Assembly (NCBI GenBank): GCA_945898105.1
Contig: CAMDHL010000142.1
Location: forward strand, 1-6,067
Source: Comamonas sp. lk
GTDB taxonomy: Bacteria > Pseudomonadota > Gammaproteobacteria > Burkholderiales > Burkholderiaceae_C
Length of the DNA stretch: 6,067 bases
Direction: 5' to 3'
Made by a program: the position numbers and the translations under genes. Positions 1-6,067 of this stretch are shown in pieces. Under the pieces are notes generated by a model, which did no database searches, had not been told where the DNA came from, and saw only the letters and a program-made list of their open reading frames with translations. Position 1 is the first letter of the stretch, and every line of letters starts with the position of its first letter.

Positions 1-1
1 C

Positions 2-127
2 GAATCAGGGCTGCCCTGCGGGGTACAAATCATCGGGCCGCAATTCGGCGATCTCTTGTGTATCGATATGGCCAAGAGATTGGAGAAAGAATTTTCCGCC
101 TTCCAGGCGCCGCCCGGTTATGAATGA
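2..127 (+). CDS. Amidase-signature family protein, C-terminal end (5' part outside window)
   Basis: This frame is open from the left edge and encodes 41 residues before TGA at 125-127. It contains GLPCGVQIIGPQFGD, which matches the conserved C-terminal segment of amidase-signature enzymes (GatA, indoleacetamide hydrolase and general amidases), where a 'G-LP-G-Q-(I/V)-G' stretch is followed by a helix ending near Leu-Glu. Here that helix is IDMAKRLEKEF, and the protein closes with a short tail (APPGYE). Family members hydrolyse carboxamides with a Ser-cisSer-Lys triad, normally in the cytoplasm. The triad lies in the N-terminal half and cannot be seen, so activity and substrate are unknown. 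The TGA overlaps an ATG at 124-126 that opens the frame of the thioesterase remnant, an operon-like arrangement. The family call is fairly sure and the specific enzyme is not. Confidence 0.82.
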   Translation, partial: ESGLPCGVQIIGPQFGDLLCIDMAKRLEKEFSAFQAPPGYE

Positions 128-402
128 AGACGCAACTGCGCGGGTGTCCCGTTCATCGCTAGTTAAATCTAAGTGAAGGGCAATGGACCACCACAACCGA
201 TTCAAGTACCAAATTTATCGCAGGTGCTAAGGTCGGTAGCTCGGTGGTCGGGGAGAGCATCGCCTTGCACCGGGGCAGAACCACAATGGTTTGGCAAACA
301 ATGATAAAGAATGACCAGGGGAAACTGTGCGCAGTCGTCACGCAGACCCAGTTGATTATGAATGGGAGAACTGGATCCTCGCGCTTGTCTCTACTGATTT
401 AA
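124..402 (+). pseudogene. Remnant of a PaaI-like hotdog-fold thioesterase, interrupted by TAG
   Basis: Reading the frame that starts with ATG at 124-126 gives 12 codons, an in-frame TAG at 160-162, then 79 open codons to TAA at 400-402. The later part is coherent protein: TTTTDSSTKFIAGAKVG, then GESIALHRGRTTMVWQ, then NDQGKLCAVVTQTQLIM. This is the beta-strand pattern of the C-terminal half of PaaI-type hotdog thioesterases ('T-d-s--F---a-vG', 'RGRtt-vwqt', 'd--GkL-AvvtQTQ'). A complete member has about 130-150 residues. Here the N-terminal half, with the HGG region and the central helix, is missing: only about 20 codons lie between the ATG and the TTTD strand. No start codon after the TAG would restore it (first candidates GTG 244 and TTG 262). 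The ATG overlaps the amidase stop (ATGA), so an intact gene may once have been translationally coupled to the amidase. An internal deletion plus a nonsense change is the simplest explanation. Suppression of the TAG would still leave the fold incomplete. Confidence 0.72.
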
Positions 403-412
403 GTGCTATCCT
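385..412 (+). promoter_or_regulatory. Candidate sigma70-type promoter upstream of the small membrane ORF
   Basis: TTGTCT (385-390, 4 of 6 matches to TTGACA) is followed after 16 bases by TATCCT (407-412, 4 of 6 matches to TATAAT). The -10 box is preceded by TGC, giving an extended -10 motif (TGnTATCCT). A transcript would start around 418-420 and give a leader of about 40 nt before the ATG at 460. The boxes overlap the end of the thioesterase remnant. This is pattern matching only, and chance matches of this quality are not rare. Confidence 0.35.
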
Positions 413-459
413 ATCGCTCACTAAGTTTTCCTGCCGCTGAAACTTCGGAGTTTGTCACC

Positions 460-549
460 ATGAAAAACACAGTATTAGCCATATTGGCTTTCTGGTTTGT
501 AGCGGTTTGCCTGATCTTCGTTTACACAGTTTTGATTGGCGACTTATAG
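460..549 (+). CDS. Putative 29-residue single-span membrane protein
   Basis: ATG at 460 opens a 29-codon frame ending in TAG at 547-549. It starts MKNTV and then runs through about 20 almost uninterrupted hydrophobic residues (LAILAFWFVAVCLIFVYTVL) before a short IGDL tail. This is the profile of a single transmembrane helix with a Lys near the N-terminus. A GGAG ribosome-binding site lies at 447-450, 9 nt before the ATG, and a plausible extended -10 promoter lies further upstream. No family is recognised. Bacterial small membrane proteins of this size often modulate a larger membrane complex, but nothing here points to a partner. Two alternatives remain: the N-terminal stub of a decayed membrane gene, given the neighbouring thioesterase remnant, or a chance frame. 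It converges on the DUF1989 gene with 29 bp between the two stop codons. Confidence 0.45.
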   Translation: MKNTVLAILAFWFVAVCLIFVYTVLIGDL

Positions 550-578
550 CGGTTTCGGACCGAGCGCCCTCGGCCTGC

Positions 579-1184
579 TCACCAAATCAGGTAGTGCGCA
601 TCGTGGATGATGCAGTCGGCGCCGTTGATGGGCAGCATATCTTGCGGGCAGGCAGAGAAAGCCACGACGCAGTCCATCTCGGCTCTGAAACTCACGCTAT
701 CCCCCGATTTACCCAATGGTGCTTCAAAAGATAGTTCAATACCATTTTTGACCGGTATGTTCATGAACAAATTGAATGGCGCCGGATGGACGATTCGTTG
801 GAGTCCGATGGCGGACAGTGCGTGCCCTAGGTTGTCAGTGCAATTGTCGTGAAAACCTTTAGCGCCTAGTTGCTCGTAGCGGTAGCGGTCGCAAGATGCA
901 ATCAAAGTGTCGTGAATCCCGGGCGAAGTATCTTCGATCATAGAAAGAATCACGCGGCGCTTGTTGGTGTAAAGCTTATCGCCGACCAAGGGAGTGATCC
1001 TGCACAACATGCCGCGGGTATGTTCCATGGACATGCATTCGCCAAGGTCCGCTTCGTTGAACGCCCAGAAATCCACCACCTGGGAACCGTGGGTATTGAT
1101 CACTTGGAGCGTCTGGCCTGCCTTCATGCGTGCAGCACTGCCTTTGCGAGCGGGAATTAGCTGAAGGGTTTGTAAGTTGGTCAT
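579..1184 (-). CDS. DUF1989 family protein (urea carboxylase-associated family)
   Basis: This 201-residue protein covers the full DUF1989 domain. Visible conserved blocks are an N-terminal IPARKGSAARMKAGQTLQV (10-28), the HGSQVVDFWAF segment (32-42), SMEHTR (52-57), the central EDTSPGIHDTLIASCDRYRYEQLG (84-107), FHDNCTDNL (111-119), FNLFMNIPV (137-145) and SACPQDMLPING (177-188). Conserved His/Cys residues (His91, Cys98, His112, Cys115, Cys179) are candidate metal or catalytic positions; this is inference. The family includes the two urea-carboxylase-associated proteins now known as the carboxyguanidine deiminase subunits (CgdA/CgdB). Here there is a single copy and no carboxylase in view, so that function should not be transferred. 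The start has little Shine-Dalgarno sequence and lies 27 bp after the stop of the serine hydrolase gene, so it is probably expressed from the same transcript. It is the last gene of the minus-strand run. Family call firm, reaction unknown. Confidence 0.93.
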   Translation of the reverse strand: MTNLQTLQLIPARKGSAARMKAGQTLQVINTHGSQVVDFWAFNEADLGECMSMEHTRGMLCRITPLVGDKLYTNKRRVILSMIEDTSPGIHDTLIASCDRYRYEQLGAKGFHDNCTDNLGHALSAIGLQRIVHPAPFNLFMNIPVKNGIELSFEAPLGKSGDSVSFRAEMDCVVAFSACPQDMLPINGADCIIHDAHYLIW

Positions 1185-1211
1185 AGCATGTGGTGCCGGT
1201 TATGCGGTGCG

Positions 1212-2480
1212 CTATCCCGCTGATCGCATTAGATGGATCGCCATTGCATGGTAGGCCGGAATAGAGTGCGGGTCTATCCCCAGATTGCCTGCGATATGGT
1301 GCGATCCGTAGCGCGCGATCACCATTTCGGCCAAGGGATCTATGTAGAGTGCTTGGCCATGAATCCCCCGCGCCATATAGGCACCATGCGGATTGTGCGT
1401 GATCCACCACATGTTTCGGTAGCTCCAACCGGGCAAGGTGTGGTAACCCGCAGATACAAATTTTGTTGGGTCGGCTCCTCGGGCGGTATCCGCAATGACT
1501 TCGGGGTAGAGCACTTTCTGGCCTGAAGCACGGCCCCCGTTGCGCATCATTTCCCCAAAACGCGCCAAGTCACGCAGCGTGGTGTTCAGGCCTGCGCCAG
1601 CAAATTCAGTACCTGCAGAGTCCACCGTAATGTAGGCATCGTGTTCTGCCCCTAGTAGTGACCAGATACGCTGCGATAGGTTGTCTGCTAGCGACATCCC
1701 CGTGACACGCCGGATGATCCATCCCAGCACATCCGTGTTGATTGTTTTGTATGAAAAATGAGCGCCGTGAACACCTTGCTTTTTCACGGTTGGCAGGAAT
1801 TCATAAAAGTTGTCCGGGCCCTGGTAACCCGTGGGACGAAAAAGTAACCCTCCGGCCCGGGCGTGATGCCAAATGCCTGCATCGGGGTCGGTGTAATCTT
1901 CGCTGTAATTCAAGCCGGTAGTCATATCCAGCACTTGGCGCACCGTCGCGTCGGCAAAGCCACTGCCAGCTAGTTCGGGTATATAGTGGGTGACCATGGC
2001 TGTTTCGTCGATCAGACCTTCGTAGACCAGGCAGGCGCCAATGCAGCCGATAAATGACTTGGTTACGGAAAATGCTATATGCGGCGTATCAGCGTCGAGC
2101 GCACCAGCGTAGCGCTCGTAGACTATCTTTCCGCGGTGAAGCACCACAATGCCGTCGGTGTAATTGGTCAGTAGCGACTGGTCCCAGCGCATCGGCGTTG
2201 ATGATCCGATAGGATTGAATTGCAGCGGGTCTAAATCCTGGCGCTCTGCACGCTCCAATGGCACAACCGGCCCATGACCGCGCGAGATTGATTTAGTAGC
2301 TACCAAATTTCGGTAATTACTATTGGCCCAACGGTTTTGCGGAAACCGCAGCATACTGCCATCATCAAAGCGCACGCGCCTTTCGGGGGGTGGTGGCGTG
2401 CCTACCATCCAAGCCATGTGGCGTGGATCGCTTGCTACGGCATCAAGCGGGACGGGTGCGATATTGAGCTGGGTATTCAT
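1212..2480 (-). CDS. Serine hydrolase, class C beta-lactamase/NylB-like family
   Basis: This is a 422-residue protein of the penicillin-binding-protein/beta-lactamase fold (COG1680). The nucleophile motif S-x-x-K is FSVTK with Ser138 and Lys141. The second motif is HFSYKTINTDVLGWIIRRVTG (241-261), giving Tyr244 as likely general base. It resembles the 'Y--(N/L)TDVLGW' form of 6-aminohexanoate-dimer hydrolase (NylB) and its carboxylesterase relatives rather than the Y-S-N of AmpC. The third motif is GIHGQALYIDP (372-382), with His-Gly in place of KTG. EFAGAGLNTTLRDLARFG (292-309) is the usual family segment between motifs 2 and 3. The N-terminal 100 residues, with WMVGTPPPPE and SRGHGP, also resemble the NylB-type subgroup. 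No signal peptide is visible, so a cytoplasmic enzyme is expected, cleaving an amide or ester. The chosen ATG has only weak upstream purines (AAGAAC), so the start is less certain than the family. It lies 63 bp after the dehydrogenase gene. An EstB-type esterase is an equally good label; the substrate is unknown. Confidence 0.92.
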   Translation of the reverse strand: MNTQLNIAPVPLDAVASDPRHMAWMVGTPPPPERRVRFDDGSMLRFPQNRWANSNYRNLVATKSISRGHGPVVPLERAERQDLDPLQFNPIGSSTPMRWDQSLLTNYTDGIVVLHRGKIVYERYAGALDADTPHIAFSVTKSFIGCIGACLVYEGLIDETAMVTHYIPELAGSGFADATVRQVLDMTTGLNYSEDYTDPDAGIWHHARAGGLLFRPTGYQGPDNFYEFLPTVKKQGVHGAHFSYKTINTDVLGWIIRRVTGMSLADNLSQRIWSLLGAEHDAYITVDSAGTEFAGAGLNTTLRDLARFGEMMRNGGRASGQKVLYPEVIADTARGADPTKFVSAGYHTLPGWSYRNMWWITHNPHGAYMARGIHGQALYIDPLAEMVIARYGSHHIAGNLGIDPHSIPAYHAMAIHLMRSAG

Positions 2481-2543
2481 GTTCTTGTTTTGGTTGTGAG
2501 TGGGTGAAGAAAGCTCTCTGAATTAAGCGTAGATGGTGTCAAC

Positions 2544-3710
2544 TTACCAGGCGGCCTGAAGAATTTCGAGGTTGTCTGCGGCTTTTGTTATGGGCCTCGG
2601 ATTGGAGCGCACGAAAGGGTTGGCCAAACCTTTCTCCGCGATGATGGGTAAGCGCTCTTGTGCCACCTTCAATTGAGAGATGCGCGTGGGCAACTTCAGT
2701 TCTGCTATCAATTCTTCTAGTTGGTCTGCTGCGGCACGGGAAGGGTCTCCCAGTGCAGCTGCTATTTCTTGCAGTGGCTTGGCGCAATAGTCTTGGTTGT
2801 AGCGCATTACCGTGGGCAGCAGGACGCACGAGGTTATGCCATGCGGTACACCACTATCGCCGCCCAGAGCATGGCCAAGGCCATGACTGGCGCCGTAGTG
2901 AACGCGTCGAATGCTGGTGGCAGCCAGCCATGAGGCTGTTTGCCCATTCAAACGCGCTTCTAGGTCCTTGGGGTCGATCATGTAACGGCGCAAGGCGCTT
3001 TGCATCAGGCCCAACGCCCGAATTGCCAAGGCATCCGTGAAAGCTTGCGCGTTCACTGCGCATAGCGCTTCAACCGCATGGTCGATGGCGCGTACACCTG
3101 TAGATAGCCATAAGGCATCGGGCGTAGCCAGGGTCATTGCGGGATCCAAAATGACGCTGGCTGAGCCAATGAATCGGCCTGTGAAACCATGTTTGATTCC
3201 GGTACCAGTGTTCGTGCCACCGGCCAGGTCACTAAATTCTGCGCCTGAAAGCGTTGTCGGTATCGTGATTTGACGGCACGGAGGTTCCCTGACCACGGGC
3301 ACGCGCAAACTGCCATCGGAGTTGATGGCCATATGCCAATCACTAAGTTGTTCAATCTTTTGGACATCCTCAGCTAGGCAAACCAGGGCAATCTTGACCG
3401 TATCAATCACGGTGCCGCCGCCGATGCTCACAATCAAGTCGGCGTTTGCCGCGCGCAGGGCTTGGGTGAGTGCAATGACTTTACTAAAAGGTGTGTGCTC
3501 TACACAGGCATCAAAAATGCCGACTACTTGCTTCTCGATGCCCGCCGTCGCCGAGCGAACCAGATCAGTCTTTTCATTGAGGGTGCGGCCCGTGACCACA
3601 AACACGCGCTGCGCACCGCGCTGCTCGACTTCCTGCTGCAATGCCGTTGCCACGGGAGTGCCAAAGTGCACCCGATCCATTGGTAAAAATGAAAATAGGC
3701 CAGCCTTCAT
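2544..3710 (-). CDS. Iron-type alcohol dehydrogenase family oxidoreductase, maleylacetate reductase-like
   Basis: This 388-residue protein has the full two-domain architecture of group III (Fe-type) alcohol dehydrogenases. The N-terminal Rossmann-like domain carries SIGGGTVID (95-103), which binds the NAD(P) pyrophosphate, and ITIPTTLSGAE (148-158). The helical C-terminal domain carries GVRAIDHAVEAL (205-216) and ASHGLGHALGGDSGVPHG (274-291). Aligned to FucO, the metal ligands His200, His263 and His277 correspond to His211, His276 and His290, but Asp196 corresponds to Arg207. The C-terminus (NPRPITKAADNLEIL) is typical of maleylacetate reductases, members in which this Asp is also replaced and which need no metal. 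I infer a reductase acting on a keto acid or aldehyde with NAD(P)H. The start at 3710 was chosen because AAGGAG (3716-3721) lies 5 nt upstream; a further in-frame ATG at 3746 would add 12 residues but would place this perfect site inside the gene. Two inverted-repeat structures lie in the upstream gap. It is the first gene of the dehydrogenase-hydrolase-DUF1989 run. Confidence 0.92.
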   Translation of the reverse strand: MKAGLFSFLPMDRVHFGTPVATALQQEVEQRGAQRVFVVTGRTLNEKTDLVRSATAGIEKQVVGIFDACVEHTPFSKVIALTQALRAANADLIVSIGGGTVIDTVKIALVCLAEDVQKIEQLSDWHMAINSDGSLRVPVVREPPCRQITIPTTLSGAEFSDLAGGTNTGTGIKHGFTGRFIGSASVILDPAMTLATPDALWLSTGVRAIDHAVEALCAVNAQAFTDALAIRALGLMQSALRRYMIDPKDLEARLNGQTASWLAATSIRRVHYGASHGLGHALGGDSGVPHGITSCVLLPTVMRYNQDYCAKPLQEIAAALGDPSRAAADQLEELIAELKLPTRISQLKVAQERLPIIAEKGLANPFVRSNPRPITKAADNLEILQAAW

Positions 3711-3715
3711 GTGTG

Positions 3716-3721
3716 CTCCTT
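3716..3721 (-). promoter_or_regulatory. Strong ribosome-binding site that sets the dehydrogenase start
   Basis: On the minus strand AAGGAG, in the context AAAAAAAGGAGCACAC, stands 5 nt before the ATG at 3710. It is the best Shine-Dalgarno match in the window and argues for the 388-residue form over the 400-residue one starting at 3746. Confidence 0.8.
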
Positions 3722-3753
3722 TTTTTGTCATGGCGTAAGTCGGCAATCAATGT

Positions 3754-3778
3754 CACCGTAACAAGTAATGTTGCGGTG
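3754..3778. promoter_or_regulatory. 25-bp inverted repeat, candidate operator upstream of the dehydrogenase gene
   Basis: CACCGTAACA (3754-3763), a 5-base spacer AGTAA, and TGTTGCGGTG (3769-3778) form a dyad in which 9 of 10 arm positions pair (the tenth is A against G). The nearer edge is 44 bp upstream of the ATG at 3710, a usual place for a repressor or activator site. The length and central spacer would suit a homodimeric regulator of TetR, GntR or LacI type, but no regulator gene is in the window and no convincing -35/-10 pair could be placed around it. A run of T is absent on the minus-strand 3' side, so a terminator for the enolase gene is less likely. Confidence 0.45.
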
Positions 3779-3800
3779 CACCAAAAAATGTCTGGACTAC

Positions 3801-3870
3801 TTTAGCGCCAAAATCTACACCATGCTATCCCTTGCATGACCGTTGGCTATTTTTTGGCCCAAGCGCTAAA
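3801..3870. repeat. Nested inverted repeats in the gap between enolase and dehydrogenase genes
   Basis: The outer arms TTTAGCGC (3801-3808) and GCGCTAAA (3863-3870) pair over 8 bp. Just inside, CAAAA (3809-3813) pairs with TTTTG (3852-3856). Near the centre CATGC (3821-3825) pairs with GCATG (3834-3838) around an 8-base loop. In a minus-strand transcript this gives a 13-bp stem with a bulge of about 6 nt, an internal loop and a small terminal hairpin. It could be part of a structured leader of the dehydrogenase mRNA, a processing or attenuation site after the enolase gene, or paired protein sites with DNA looping. There is no T-tract that would make it a classical terminator. The arms are short enough for chance to be possible. 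Confidence 0.3.
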
Positions 3871-3968
3871 TGTTCGGTTCGGTGCATGCCGCCGAGCGCG
3901 GGCTATCGGACGGGCAGGGGCGTGATTTGCATTTAAGGCCGGTACTGCACCGCCTGGGATGGCGGTCT

Positions 3969-5249
3969 TCAGCGGCGAAAAACACCACCACCTGCAAAGC
4001 GCGCTTGCGCGCCTAGCTGCTCTTCAATACGCAGCGCATGGTTCCATTTCACCATTCGTTCGCCACGCGCGAAGGAGCCGACCTTGAGCTGGCCGACGTC
4101 CCATCCAATTGCGAGATCGACTATGGTGTTGTCTTCTGTTTCACCAGAACGCGCCGACACAATGGCGCTGTAGCCCAGCTCTTGCGCCACTTGCCAGGCG
4201 TCCAGGGTTTCGGTCAAGGTGCCACGCTGATTGGGTTTGAGCAGCACGGTGTTGGCGGCACCCAACGCTGCGGCCTTGCGGATCAGAGCTGCACTTGACA
4301 CCAGATAGTCATCCCCCACAATTTGCAAGCGATGCCCCACCGCCTTGGTGAAACGTGTAAACCCTTGCGGATCGTCTTCTGCTAGCGGATCTTCAATTGA
4401 CACAATCGGGTATTTTTCTACCCAGCCCAGCAGCATCTCGATCAATCCATCGGAGTCCAAAACCCGCGACTCTAAGCCCAAGCGGTAATGCCCCGCTTTG
4501 CCGAATTCGGATGCCGCAATATCCAGGGCGATGGCCACCTGCTCGCCGGGAATCAAACCAGCGCGCTCTATGGATAGCACCAGCGTTTGCAGCGCTTGTT
4601 CGTTGCTGGAAAAGTCGGGCCACCAGCCGCCTTCGTCCGCAACACCATGTAGGCTGCCGCGTTGGGCCATCAAGATACCGGCGTGGCGATAAACCTCGGC
4701 CGTCCATTCCAGTGCTTGGGCAAAACTATGTGCGCCGGGGCAAACCACCATAAAGTCTTGCACGTCTACGCGTCGACCTGCATGTGCGCCGCCGCCAAAA
4801 ATCTGAATTTGCGGCATAGGCAAACGGCCCACTTGACCTTGTCCCAGATAACGGTACAAAGGCACGCCCGAGGCGGCTGCCATCGCATGCGCCGCAGCCA
4901 TCGACACAGCCAAAGTGGCATTAGCGCCCAAGCGTGATTTGTTGTCGCTACCGTCTAGCGCGATCAGTGCATGATCCAAGGCTCGTTGGTCATCGGCCAG
5001 CGTTCCCACCAGAGCGCGGGAAATTTCGCCATTAATGTGGCCCACCGCTTTCATCACATCCAAGCCCCCGAAGGCGTCGCCGCCGTCGCGCAGTTCCAGC
5101 GCTTCGCGGCTGCCTTTGGATGCGCCTGCCGGTGCAATCGCCCGCCCCATGGCGCCGTCACCAAGGACTAGTTCAGCCTCCACCGTCGGGCGACCACGGC
5201 TGTCCCAGACCCGCCGGGCGTGTATAGATCGAATCGCAAAGTCTTTCAT
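3969..5249 (-). CDS. Enolase-family protein, divergent paralogue with altered active site
   Basis: This is a 426-residue protein of full enolase length, with the N-terminal capping domain (DSRGRPTVEAE at 16-26, GSREALELRD at 46-55) and the C-terminal barrel. Relative to yeast enolase, retained residues are Ser44 (Ser39), His156 (His159), Glu206 in DEGG (Glu211), the metal ligands Asp243, Glu286 and Asp313 (Asp246, Glu295, Asp320), Lys338 (Lys345, general base), Arg367-Ser368 (Arg374-Ser375) and Lys389 (Lys396). Changed are Glu168 to Asp165, His373 to Ala366 (SARSGETED instead of SHRSGETED), and the flexible loop SGAST to AGASK (41-45). The NGGEHA motif reads FGGGAHA. Normal enolase interconverts 2-phosphoglycerate and phosphoenolpyruvate; these changes touch residues around the substrate hydroxyl and loop closure, so a different substrate or reaction is likely. 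The start overlaps the kinase stop by 4 bp (ATGA), with AAGGA (5259-5263) 9 nt upstream. The usual eno neighbours (pyrG, kdsA, ftsB) are absent. Calling it glycolytic eno would be unsafe. Confidence 0.93.
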   Translation of the reverse strand: MKDFAIRSIHARRVWDSRGRPTVEAELVLGDGAMGRAIAPAGASKGSREALELRDGGDAFGGLDVMKAVGHINGEISRALVGTLADDQRALDHALIALDGSDNKSRLGANATLAVSMAAAHAMAAASGVPLYRYLGQGQVGRLPMPQIQIFGGGAHAGRRVDVQDFMVVCPGAHSFAQALEWTAEVYRHAGILMAQRGSLHGVADEGGWWPDFSSNEQALQTLVLSIERAGLIPGEQVAIALDIAASEFGKAGHYRLGLESRVLDSDGLIEMLLGWVEKYPIVSIEDPLAEDDPQGFTRFTKAVGHRLQIVGDDYLVSSAALIRKAAALGAANTVLLKPNQRGTLTETLDAWQVAQELGYSAIVSARSGETEDNTIVDLAIGWDVGQLKVGSFARGERMVKWNHALRIEEQLGAQARFAGGGVFRR

Positions 5250-6067
5250 GTACAGATTTCCTTAGCCCAGGCCTGGGCGATGTCTTGAAGCTGCGTGGTG
5301 GGTTTCAATAGAAATGCACTGGCCACGCGCCGGACTTGATCGCGCTGCGTGTCATCGGTGATGTACTCGACCGGCGACTTACCGTCCACGCGTGCCAGAA
5401 ACAGGCCGGGCAGCAGACGCGCCGCACGCGCTTGCACTGCCTGCGGGCTTTCCCAATCCACGCACGCTAAGTAGCTGGCCGCAAAGACTTCAAAGCAGTA
5501 CAGAAAGTCTGCGCGGGCCCCAGGCGTCCAGAGGCATTTGAGCAGGAAATGGTTTAAGCAAAACGCTAGATCAAAGGCGGGATCGCTCCAGGTGGCGCAC
5601 TCGGCGTCAAGTAGCACCGGTCCTTGGTTGCCAAGCAAAATGTTTTTGGGGCTTACGTCGCCATGTACCAAGGTCTTGGCATGGCTTTGTGTTTGCTCGA
5701 CTAATGCGTGCAGCGCGGGCGCAAGTTTGGTATGGCGTGCCGCCGTGGCTACCAAATAGGGTGCTAGTCTGATTTCAAAAAATATTCGTTGAGTTGGAAA
5801 CTCAGCGGCTAAATCGGCTTGCCCAGCGGCGTAACTGTGAATGCGTCCCAGCACCTCACCTACGGTTTCGGCAGTATTTTTCTCGGCACGTCCAGCATGC
5901 AGTTCTTGCTTCCAAAGACGGTAGTCGGCAGGTTCCAGGTACTGCATCACCAGTACGCCCAGCTTTTCATGTTGCCCCAGCAATTGCGGTGCGCATCCGG
6001 GCCGAGCAGCGTGCGCTACCTGTAGCCAACGCGCTTCATAGCGATTGCGTTCCACTGGCGCTTGCCA
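5246..6067 (-). CDS. APH-family phosphotransferase (small-molecule kinase), 5' end outside window
   Basis: The frame is open to the right edge. The 273 visible residues begin WQAPVERNRYEARW and end at TGA 5246-5248. This is the C-lobe and hinge of an aminoglycoside phosphotransferase/choline kinase-fold protein: hinge VLVMQYLEP, then the catalytic loop LVHGDVSPKNILLG with Asp137 as catalytic base and Asn142 binding metal, then LLDAE with the metal-binding Asp154, then the WSDPAFDLAF segment, followed by the helical C-terminal part (numbering from the first visible residue). The GTG at 6053-6055 could be taken as a start, but the N-lobe with the nucleotide loop and ATP-binding Lys must lie upstream, and the preceding codons read as continuing protein, so the gene is truncated by the window edge. 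It would phosphorylate a hydroxyl of a small molecule in the cytoplasm. The 4-bp overlap with the enolase gene implies co-translation and a shared pathway. A resistance role is possible but not favoured by this context. Confidence 0.87.
   Translation of the reverse strand, partial: WQAPVERNRYEARWLQVAHAARPGCAPQLLGQHEKLGVLVMQYLEPADYRLWKQELHAGRAEKNTAETVGEVLGRIHSYAAGQADLAAEFPTQRIFFEIRLAPYLVATAARHTKLAPALHALVEQTQSHAKTLVHGDVSPKNILLGNQGPVLLDAECATWSDPAFDLAFCLNHFLLKCLWTPGARADFLYCFEVFAASYLACVDWESPQAVQARAARLLPGLFLARVDGKSPVEYITDDTQRDQVRRVASAFLLKPTTQLQDIAQAWAKEICT
5259..5263 (-). promoter_or_regulatory. Ribosome-binding site of the enolase-family gene inside the kinase gene
   Basis: On the minus strand AAGGA lies 9 nt before the ATG at 5249, within the last codons of the kinase gene. 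Together with the ATGA stop/start overlap it supports coupled translation of kinase and enolase-family protein. Confidence 0.6.

Follow-up and report, generated by a model that had tools for sequence, protein, structure and literature searches.

An enolase paralogue with a changed C3 site and an overlapping kinase gene: a possible module for phosphorylating and then dehydrating sugar acids

The window analysed here is a 6,067-nucleotide stretch of DNA from Comamonas sp. lk (GenBank assembly GCA_945898105.1, contig CAMDHL010000142.1, positions 1 to 6,067), and its minus strand carries an enolase paralogue together with an APH-type kinase gene that overlaps it. What the protein does is best suggested by the overlapping kinase gene, which was overlooked in an earlier note made from the sequence alone. 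Fold and core chemistry remain those of enolase; what is new is the changed substrate end and the attached kinase. Our tentative reading is that the two proteins form one module acting on a (2R)-2,3-dihydroxy acid larger than glycerate: the kinase would add a phosphate at O2, and the paralogue would then remove the 3-hydroxyl as water. The features on which the argument rests are as follows:

5246 to 6067, minus strand: APH-family kinase; about 62 N-terminal residues are lost at the contig end; motifs HGDVSPKN and LLDAE
5246 to 5249, minus strand: ATGA overlap of the kinase stop and the paralogue start, read from the sequence
3969 to 5249, minus strand: enolase paralogue of the D165/A366/W210 subfamily, assigned from its open reading frame (426 amino acids), profiles, alignment and tree
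5115 to 5117, minus strand: Lys45 codon; not a family feature
4755 to 4757, minus strand: Asp165 codon; Glu in 12/12 canonical enolases; Glu167 in the numbering of the E. coli paper cited below
4632 to 4634, minus strand: Glu206 codon; catalytic acid position, kept
4620 to 4622, minus strand: Trp210 codon; invariant in the subfamily, Ala in 12/12 canonical enolases; adjoins the Glu206 loop
4236 to 4238, minus strand: Lys338 codon; catalytic base position, kept
4152 to 4154, minus strand: Ala366 codon; His in 12/12 canonical enolases; His369 in the numbering of the E. coli paper

The paralogue's reading frame opens with ATG, and its coordinates include the stop codon. The protein has the loop Ala41-Gly-Ala-Ser44-Lys45, His156, Gln164-Asp165 (QDF), Asp205-Glu206-Gly-Gly-Trp209-Trp210, the metal ligands Asp243, Glu286 and Asp313, Lys338 and Lys389, and Ser365-Ala366-Arg367-Ser368 within SARSGETED. 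In yeast numbering Lys345, Lys396, Glu211 and His159 are all kept (K338, K389, E206 and H156 of the paralogue), and Glu168 and His373, which lie at the C3 hydroxyl, are replaced by Asp165 and Ala366. The earlier note had pointed to SARSGETED with Ala366, to Asp165, to AGASK and to intact metal ligands and Lys338/Lys389, and all of these can be read in the frame; its description of the SGAST loop as changed is right for the first Ser, which is replaced in AGASK, but not for the second, Ser44 (the position of the metal-binding-loop Ser), which is kept. An AlphaFold model of the paralogue has low confidence at the active-site loops 41-60, 151-160 and 201-210. The window protein scores 480.1 bits against the enolase model TIGR01060 (cut-off 300) and 28.4 bits against MR_MLE_C PF13378, below the cut-off of 29.4. 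Because the TIGR01060 equivalog accepts it so far over the cut-off, automated annotation calls the clade glycolytic enolase. The plasmid members at loci L094, L095 and L096 carry the annotation phosphopyruvate hydratase.

What do the changed residues touch? In an E. coli enolase-SF2312 structure (PMC6863902), the hydroxyl that stands for the C3 hydroxyl of 2-phosphoglycerate bonds Glu167, Lys392 and His369, and the carboxylate and phosphate contacts include Gln166, Asp316, Lys392, His158, Arg370 and Ser371. Our alignment places Asp165 at Glu167 and Ala366 at His369 and finds the other listed contacts kept; that is, two of the three C3-hydroxyl-bonding residues named there are the two that are changed in the paralogue. 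Taken together, recognition of carboxylate, phosphate and metals is mostly kept in the site, whereas its C3-reading part is rebuilt, and the earlier proposal of retained enolate chemistry with a remodelled C3 end fits both the sequence and the E. coli structure. A study of M. tuberculosis enolase (PMC10619443) reports alanine mutants of Asp241, Glu163, Glu204 and Lys335 as non-functional and S42A as about 5% active, and lists Glu163, at the Asp165 position by family numbering, among the carboxylate contacts.

Scanning 84,980 species genomes turned up 216 stretches encoding a relative, and the best 80 of these 216 loci were kept; plasmid records and further genomes included, 130 paralogue loci were read in total. 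Among the family members read, identity to the window protein ranges from 52 to 98%. The alignment set 128 paralogues, including the window's but not L053 and L102, which are too short, against 12 canonical enolases, E. coli contributing one, and showed 14 switched positions at which all canonical enolases have one residue and at least 95% of the paralogues another. Asp165, Ala366, Trp210, Gly152, Gln149, Ala190, Ala204 and Pro288 occur in 128/128 paralogues, and the first three of these in 0/12 canonical enolases. Asp243, Glu286, Asp313, Lys338, Glu206, His156, Gln164 and Ser44 are also present in 128/128, and Lys389 in 126/126 where the position is present. D165, A366 and W210 were found in 120/120 among the matches listed for the window protein and again in 120/120 among the matches listed for a Paracoccus member. 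In a tree, 58 paralogues and 11 canonical enolases fall on opposite sides of a long 100/100 branch (0.97 plus 0.27). The fixed signature and the single clade bear out the view that this is a specialised and not a housekeeping enolase, and the phylogeny that the earlier note had asked for sets the paralogues apart from the canonical proteins. Ala and Asp variants are not common in the housekeeping enolases aligned, 12/12 of which keep His and Glu. Position 45 differs from these sites: the residues found there across the 128 paralogues include Arg (53), Thr (43) and Lys (27), with Lys in 120/120 among the matches listed for the window protein. Lys45 is a local feature and not family-wide, and the suggestion that it was added for a more negatively charged ligand is rejected on that ground.

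Besides the paralogue, the window's own assembly (G000; 2.19 Mb in 298 contigs, 77.6% complete) encodes a canonical eno at positions 6-1241 of contig C220, which is 49% identical to the paralogue and has SHRSGET, QEF and SGAST; the second enolase that the earlier note proposed looking for is thus present. Of the 43 carrier genomes found, 33 were examined for eno, phosphoenolpyruvate (PEP) mutase and the PF13660 domain, and the other ten were left out. A canonical-type eno, judged by 59-91% identity to a canonical query and not by reading residues, is present besides the paralogue in 33/33 (in pieces on two contigs in G010, G124 and G243). The PF13660 domain, which we take to be the ordinary MOFRL-type glycerate kinase, occurs in 26/33, the window's genome included. 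Plain D-glycerate is therefore already served, and would not need the module.

The window kinase matches PF01636 with 71.2 bits (cut-off 23.2), and therefore is not of a known glycerate-kinase family; it is 86% identical to residues 63-334 of the kinase at L015, which itself gave no match to NCBIfam at 1e-15. Assigning the kinase a specificity by similarity was tried and given up: the nearest solved chains are 2pyw (uncharacterised) and methylthioribose kinase, with E values of 5e-5 and 0.013. The kinase lies directly upstream of the paralogue on the same strand in 117/130 loci, and 99 of these 117 adjacent pairs overlap by 4 bp (ATGA 84, GTGA 10, TTGA 5). Ten of the other 13 loci (of Rhizobium, Cupriavidus, Paraburkholderia and Bradyrhizobium type) have the kinase about 3-8 kb from the paralogue, one (L102) has fragments of both genes next to each other, and contig ends truncate the last two, L053 without a visible kinase and L039 with a kinase fragment. 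On the Rhizobium sp. RCAM05350 plasmid (L102:8998-11321) the split kinase and split paralogue are followed by FAH and short-chain dehydrogenase/reductase (SDR) genes. A phytanoyl-CoA/ectoine-hydroxylase-type dioxygenase gene stands directly upstream of the kinase in L139:6904-7803 and nearly so in L099:7240-8148.

The invariant residues, the single clade, the presence of a canonical enolase elsewhere in the genome, the linked kinase and the gene neighbourhoods were all observed directly, and from them we predict a substrate and a reaction as follows: Where present, a PanE/ApbA or D-2-hydroxyacid dehydrogenase would reduce a 2-keto acid to a (2R)-2-hydroxy acid, and the kinase would then place a phosphate on the 2-hydroxyl. 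Carboxylate and phosphate would sit on two Mg2+ sites, as in enolase; Lys338 would remove the C2 proton and Glu206 would aid departure of the C3 hydroxyl, with the shorter Asp165, the lost His at 366 and the added Trp210 reshaping the C3 pocket for a carbon substituent. The resulting 2-phosphoenol 3-deoxy acid would then pass its phosphate to water or to ADP and so become a 2-keto-3-deoxy acid. The predicted candidate substrate is tetronate- or aldonate-like. A kinase beside the kept 2-phospho-carboxylate machinery points to a substrate formed by O2 phosphorylation of a 2-hydroxy acid; the reductases suggest that in part of the lineages this is a (2R)-2-hydroxy acid made from a 2-keto acid (the stereochemistry being that expected of the reductase families); and the rebuilt C3 site, together with nearby genes for four-carbon sugar acids and 2-keto-3-deoxy acids, favours a 2,3-dihydroxy acid whose C3 bears a carbon substituent. 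More doubtful is the wider idea that this might be a new route, phosphorylative dehydration of sugar acids, in which a kinase and a true enolase replace a classical dehydratase, the 2-phosphoenol lets the ATP be recovered so that the route is ATP-neutral, and an enolase clade works outside PEP metabolism.

Neighbouring genes were surveyed within 5 kb of the module in 97 representatives (<90% identity); many neighbours stayed unannotated, and the gene caller missed the L046 kinase, which was seen in a separate locus comparison. PanE/ApbA is found in 23/97 and D-2-hydroxyacid dehydrogenase in 15/97, so that a 2-ketoacid reductase of one or the other type is near in 38/97, and no representative has both (P = 0.012 for zero overlap, with related loci that are not independent); the D-2-hydroxyacid dehydrogenases resemble PGDH and glyoxylate reductase models, below cut-offs. 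Other genes near the module encode SDR proteins (18 of the 97), acyl-CoA-ligase-family proteins (15), FAH hydrolases (14), cupins (8), extradiol-dioxygenase-like VOC proteins (6), L-threonate-dehydrogenase-like proteins (3), DUF1537 kinases (3), PdxA (3) and aldose-epimerase-like proteins (3, a label given from reading two sequences without a Pfam match). L191 has an L-threonate dehydrogenase (NF043037, 420 bits, cut-off 350), with a homologue in L190, and L046, L048 and L068 have a DUF1537 kinase and a PdxA-type dehydrogenase beside the module; in L068 the kinase scores 104 bits (below the D-threonate-kinase cut-off of 450, over Pfam cut-offs) and the dehydrogenase 342 bits (cut-off 290). An FAH hydrolase and an SDR lie directly downstream in L095, L096, L101, L102, L131, L132 and L179; the FAH hydrolase of L095 falls short of the model for 2,4-didehydro-3-deoxy-rhamnonate hydrolase (352 bits, cut-off 500). 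The HpaI/GarL-type aldolase of L192 likewise stays under its model's threshold (274 bits, cut-off 368.8), and in L015 an alkaline phosphatase lies 4.9 kb downstream. The window's closest relatives, L012, L013, L015 and L029, have the gene order ApbA-kinase-enolase. L015 and L029 add TRAP transporter genes to this; L012 and L015 add genes for a 2-hydroxyacyl-CoA lyase, an acyl-CoA ligase and a GntR protein.

A number of observations weigh against the sugar-acid reading. No PanE/ApbA, D-2-hydroxyacid or threonate dehydrogenase lies within 5 kb in 58/97 representatives, so the reductive first step is not general, and a close PanE/ApbA gene was not found in the window's genome (77.6% complete; best match 27%). 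The gene run of L179 also includes an IlvD/EDD dehydratase, and that of L178 a sugar-acid dehydratase of the MR/MLE type, and the sugar acid may therefore be dehydrated by those classical enzymes. No enol-phosphate-using gene was recognised in the operons, many of whose neighbours are unannotated, and the lyase, acyl-CoA ligase or TRAP genes of the window's nearest relatives name no sugar acid. Since Glu163 of the M. tuberculosis enzyme is described as a carboxylate contact, the change to Asp165 need not concern C3, and since contexts vary, substrates may differ between subclades. Finally, in the Rhizobium loci L094, L115, L116 and L118 a PEP carboxylase gene (L094:17972-20728, for example) adjoins the reductase and kinase, which suggests PEP itself as the product; such a neighbour gene is the sole PEP carboxylase match in G441 and G499, and for this reason the idea of a specialised PEP carboxylase for substituted PEP was dropped.

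These Rhizobium loci favour the main rival, a dedicated glycerate-to-PEP route in which hydroxypyruvate or tartronate semialdehyde is reduced, the APH kinase phosphorylates O2 and the paralogue dehydrates the product to PEP. The adjoining D-2-hydroxyacid dehydrogenase and PanE/ApbA reductases fit its reduction step, the classical sugar-acid dehydratases of L178 and L179 also speak for it, and an FAH hydrolase that cleaves a six-carbon 2,4-diketo-3-deoxy acid would set glycerate free. We nevertheless consider this route unlikely: with canonical-type eno in 33/33 and PF13660 in 26/33 carriers a second D-glycerate route would be redundant in most of them, and the residues that hold the C3 hydroxyl in E. 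coli enolase are replaced in every member aligned. In its most interesting form the substrate is L-glycerate, which would explain the remodelled C3-hydroxyl site, but the kept Lys338 would then face the wrong side of C2. A related proposal is that a group other than hydroxide leaves from C3, for example sulfite from 2-phospho-3-sulfolactate, to give ordinary PEP. This would account for both the remodelled C3 site and the nearby PEP carboxylase; it seems to us improbable, as the acidic Glu206 and Asp165 would repel an anionic leaving group, and no annotated neighbour passes a sulfonate or dehalogenase family cut-off among the matches listed, most neighbours being unannotated (L096 has a sulfatase).

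Two changed active-site residues might instead mark a catalytically dead or regulatory copy, and alanine at Glu163, the Asp165 position, is reported as non-functional in the M. tuberculosis enzyme (PMC10619443). However, residue 165 has changed to Asp and not to a neutral residue, no member aligned departs from the metal, phosphate and carboxylate ligands or from the base and the acid, and the gene persists next to a kinase that has its motifs, in contrast to the truly decayed frame of L142 (below); a dead or regulatory copy is very improbable. We give the least credence of all to an enzyme of phosphonate biosynthesis like carboxyphosphonoenolpyruvate (CPEP) synthase, the comparison drawn in the earlier note. 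Phosphonate biosynthesis is known to have recruited enolase homologues, the GntR protein of L012 is weakly like phnR (77.5 bits, cut-off 271.5) and the iron-containing alcohol dehydrogenase of the window weakly like PsrA (117.9, cut-off 423.7). Against these, only 1/33 carriers, G846, passes the cut-off of the PEP mutase model TIGR02320, the window's assembly (77.6% complete) gives no match to it, and no phosphonate gene over cut-off was found among the annotated neighbours, the window's included; the comparison is not supported. TIGR02320 matches at E 0.001 or better occur in 23/33 carriers; no control genome passed the cut-off, whose sensitivity is thus not shown by a control.

Downstream of the paralogue the window carries three further genes:

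2544 to 3746, minus strand: iron-containing alcohol dehydrogenase (Fe-ADH), separated from the paralogue by at least 222 bp; near the module in L013 too; module membership unproven
1212 to 2480, minus strand: beta-lactamase-fold hydrolase; near the module in L013 and L029; module membership unproven
579 to 1184, minus strand: DUF1989 protein; near the module in L013 and L029; module membership unproven

This group recurs on either side of the module (window 579-3746, L013:17314-20462 and L029:193-2137, with Fe-ADH not seen in L029). An operon-wide interpretation that takes in all three genes was not taken up, their homologues being near the module only in L013 and L029 among the best 80 of 216 loci; L099 has a Fe-ADH homologue at 24%. 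In L012, L015 and L041 a 2-hydroxyacyl-CoA lyase (NF058623; 798 bits in L012, cut-off 600), an acyl-CoA ligase and a GntR/FCD regulator lie near the module; the lyase was not found in the window's genome (77.6% complete; best match 29-30%).

At the search thresholds used, the paralogue was found in 7/41 close relatives (the window's own genome included), in 6/369 genomes sampled from the class (of 13 below the E-value limit, 7 have the canonical signature), in 9/397 drawn from the phylum, and in 25/297 from the order of a Rhizobium-type genome (signature read in 19 + 2 of the 25). Plasmid-borne copies occur in Rhizobium, Pararhizobium, Cupriavidus, Paraburkholderia, Caballeronia, Azospirillum, Paracoccus, Roseibium and Sinorhizobium. 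L019, L039 and L046 are titled Akkermansia muciniphila, Bordetella parapertussis and Solirubrobacterales, yet their copies are of proteobacterial type and share 84, 74 and 72% identity with the window's; these titles are possibly wrong or the contigs misbinned. L142:8779-9984 (G034, contig C42) is a third, decayed enolase-like frame without NGG, DEGG and SHRSGE motifs and with no kinase in its gene run; G034 also has a canonical eno and the paralogue.

Enolase is usually treated as among the most invariant enzymes of metabolism, and a clade with two fixed altered active-site residues and a dedicated kinase means that its site has been re-specified in nature. Asp165/Ala366 offers automated annotation a two-residue test, and the clade hints that bacteria of fresh water and the rhizosphere carry out a metabolic step not yet described. 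If the sugar-acid reading is true, an enolase clade annotated as glycolytic would work outside PEP metabolism across beta- and alphaproteobacteria. We found no account of this kinase-enolase pair in the open-access literature searched, subscription papers being outside its scope.

Compared with known systems, the paralogue differs from enolase proper (EC 4.2.1.11/TIGR01060) at 14 switched positions, among them Asp165 in place of Glu, Ala366 in place of His and Trp210 in place of Ala, and is set apart by its separate clade, its kinase linkage and its coexistence with canonical eno. CPEP synthase (PhpH-type) is likewise an enolase homologue diverted from glycolysis, but the module, compared here by genomic context, has no recognised phosphonate genes. 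The glycerate branch of the serine cycle (hydroxypyruvate reductase, glycerate 2-kinase, enolase and PEP carboxylase) has the same order of reaction types, and the Rhizobium loci even have the PEP carboxylase; the module differs in its APH-type kinase and changed C3-hydroxyl site, and most carriers also have a glycerate-kinase-type domain and canonical eno. The four-carbon acid-sugar pathways use L-threonate dehydrogenase, OtnK, PdxA2 and DUF1537 kinases, and LtnD-type genes (L190, L191) and DUF1537- and PdxA-type genes (L046, L048, L068) lie beside the module; those pathways phosphorylate O4 and decarboxylate, whereas the module is proposed to phosphorylate O2 and dehydrate. The MR/MLE acid-sugar dehydratases of the enolase superfamily (glucarate, galactonate, fuconate and rhamnonate dehydratases) share the net chemistry proposed here, C2 proton abstraction and loss of the 3-hydroxyl, and the paralogue differs from them in its enolase-type active site, its PF13378 score below cut-off and the proposed prior phosphorylation at the 2-position.

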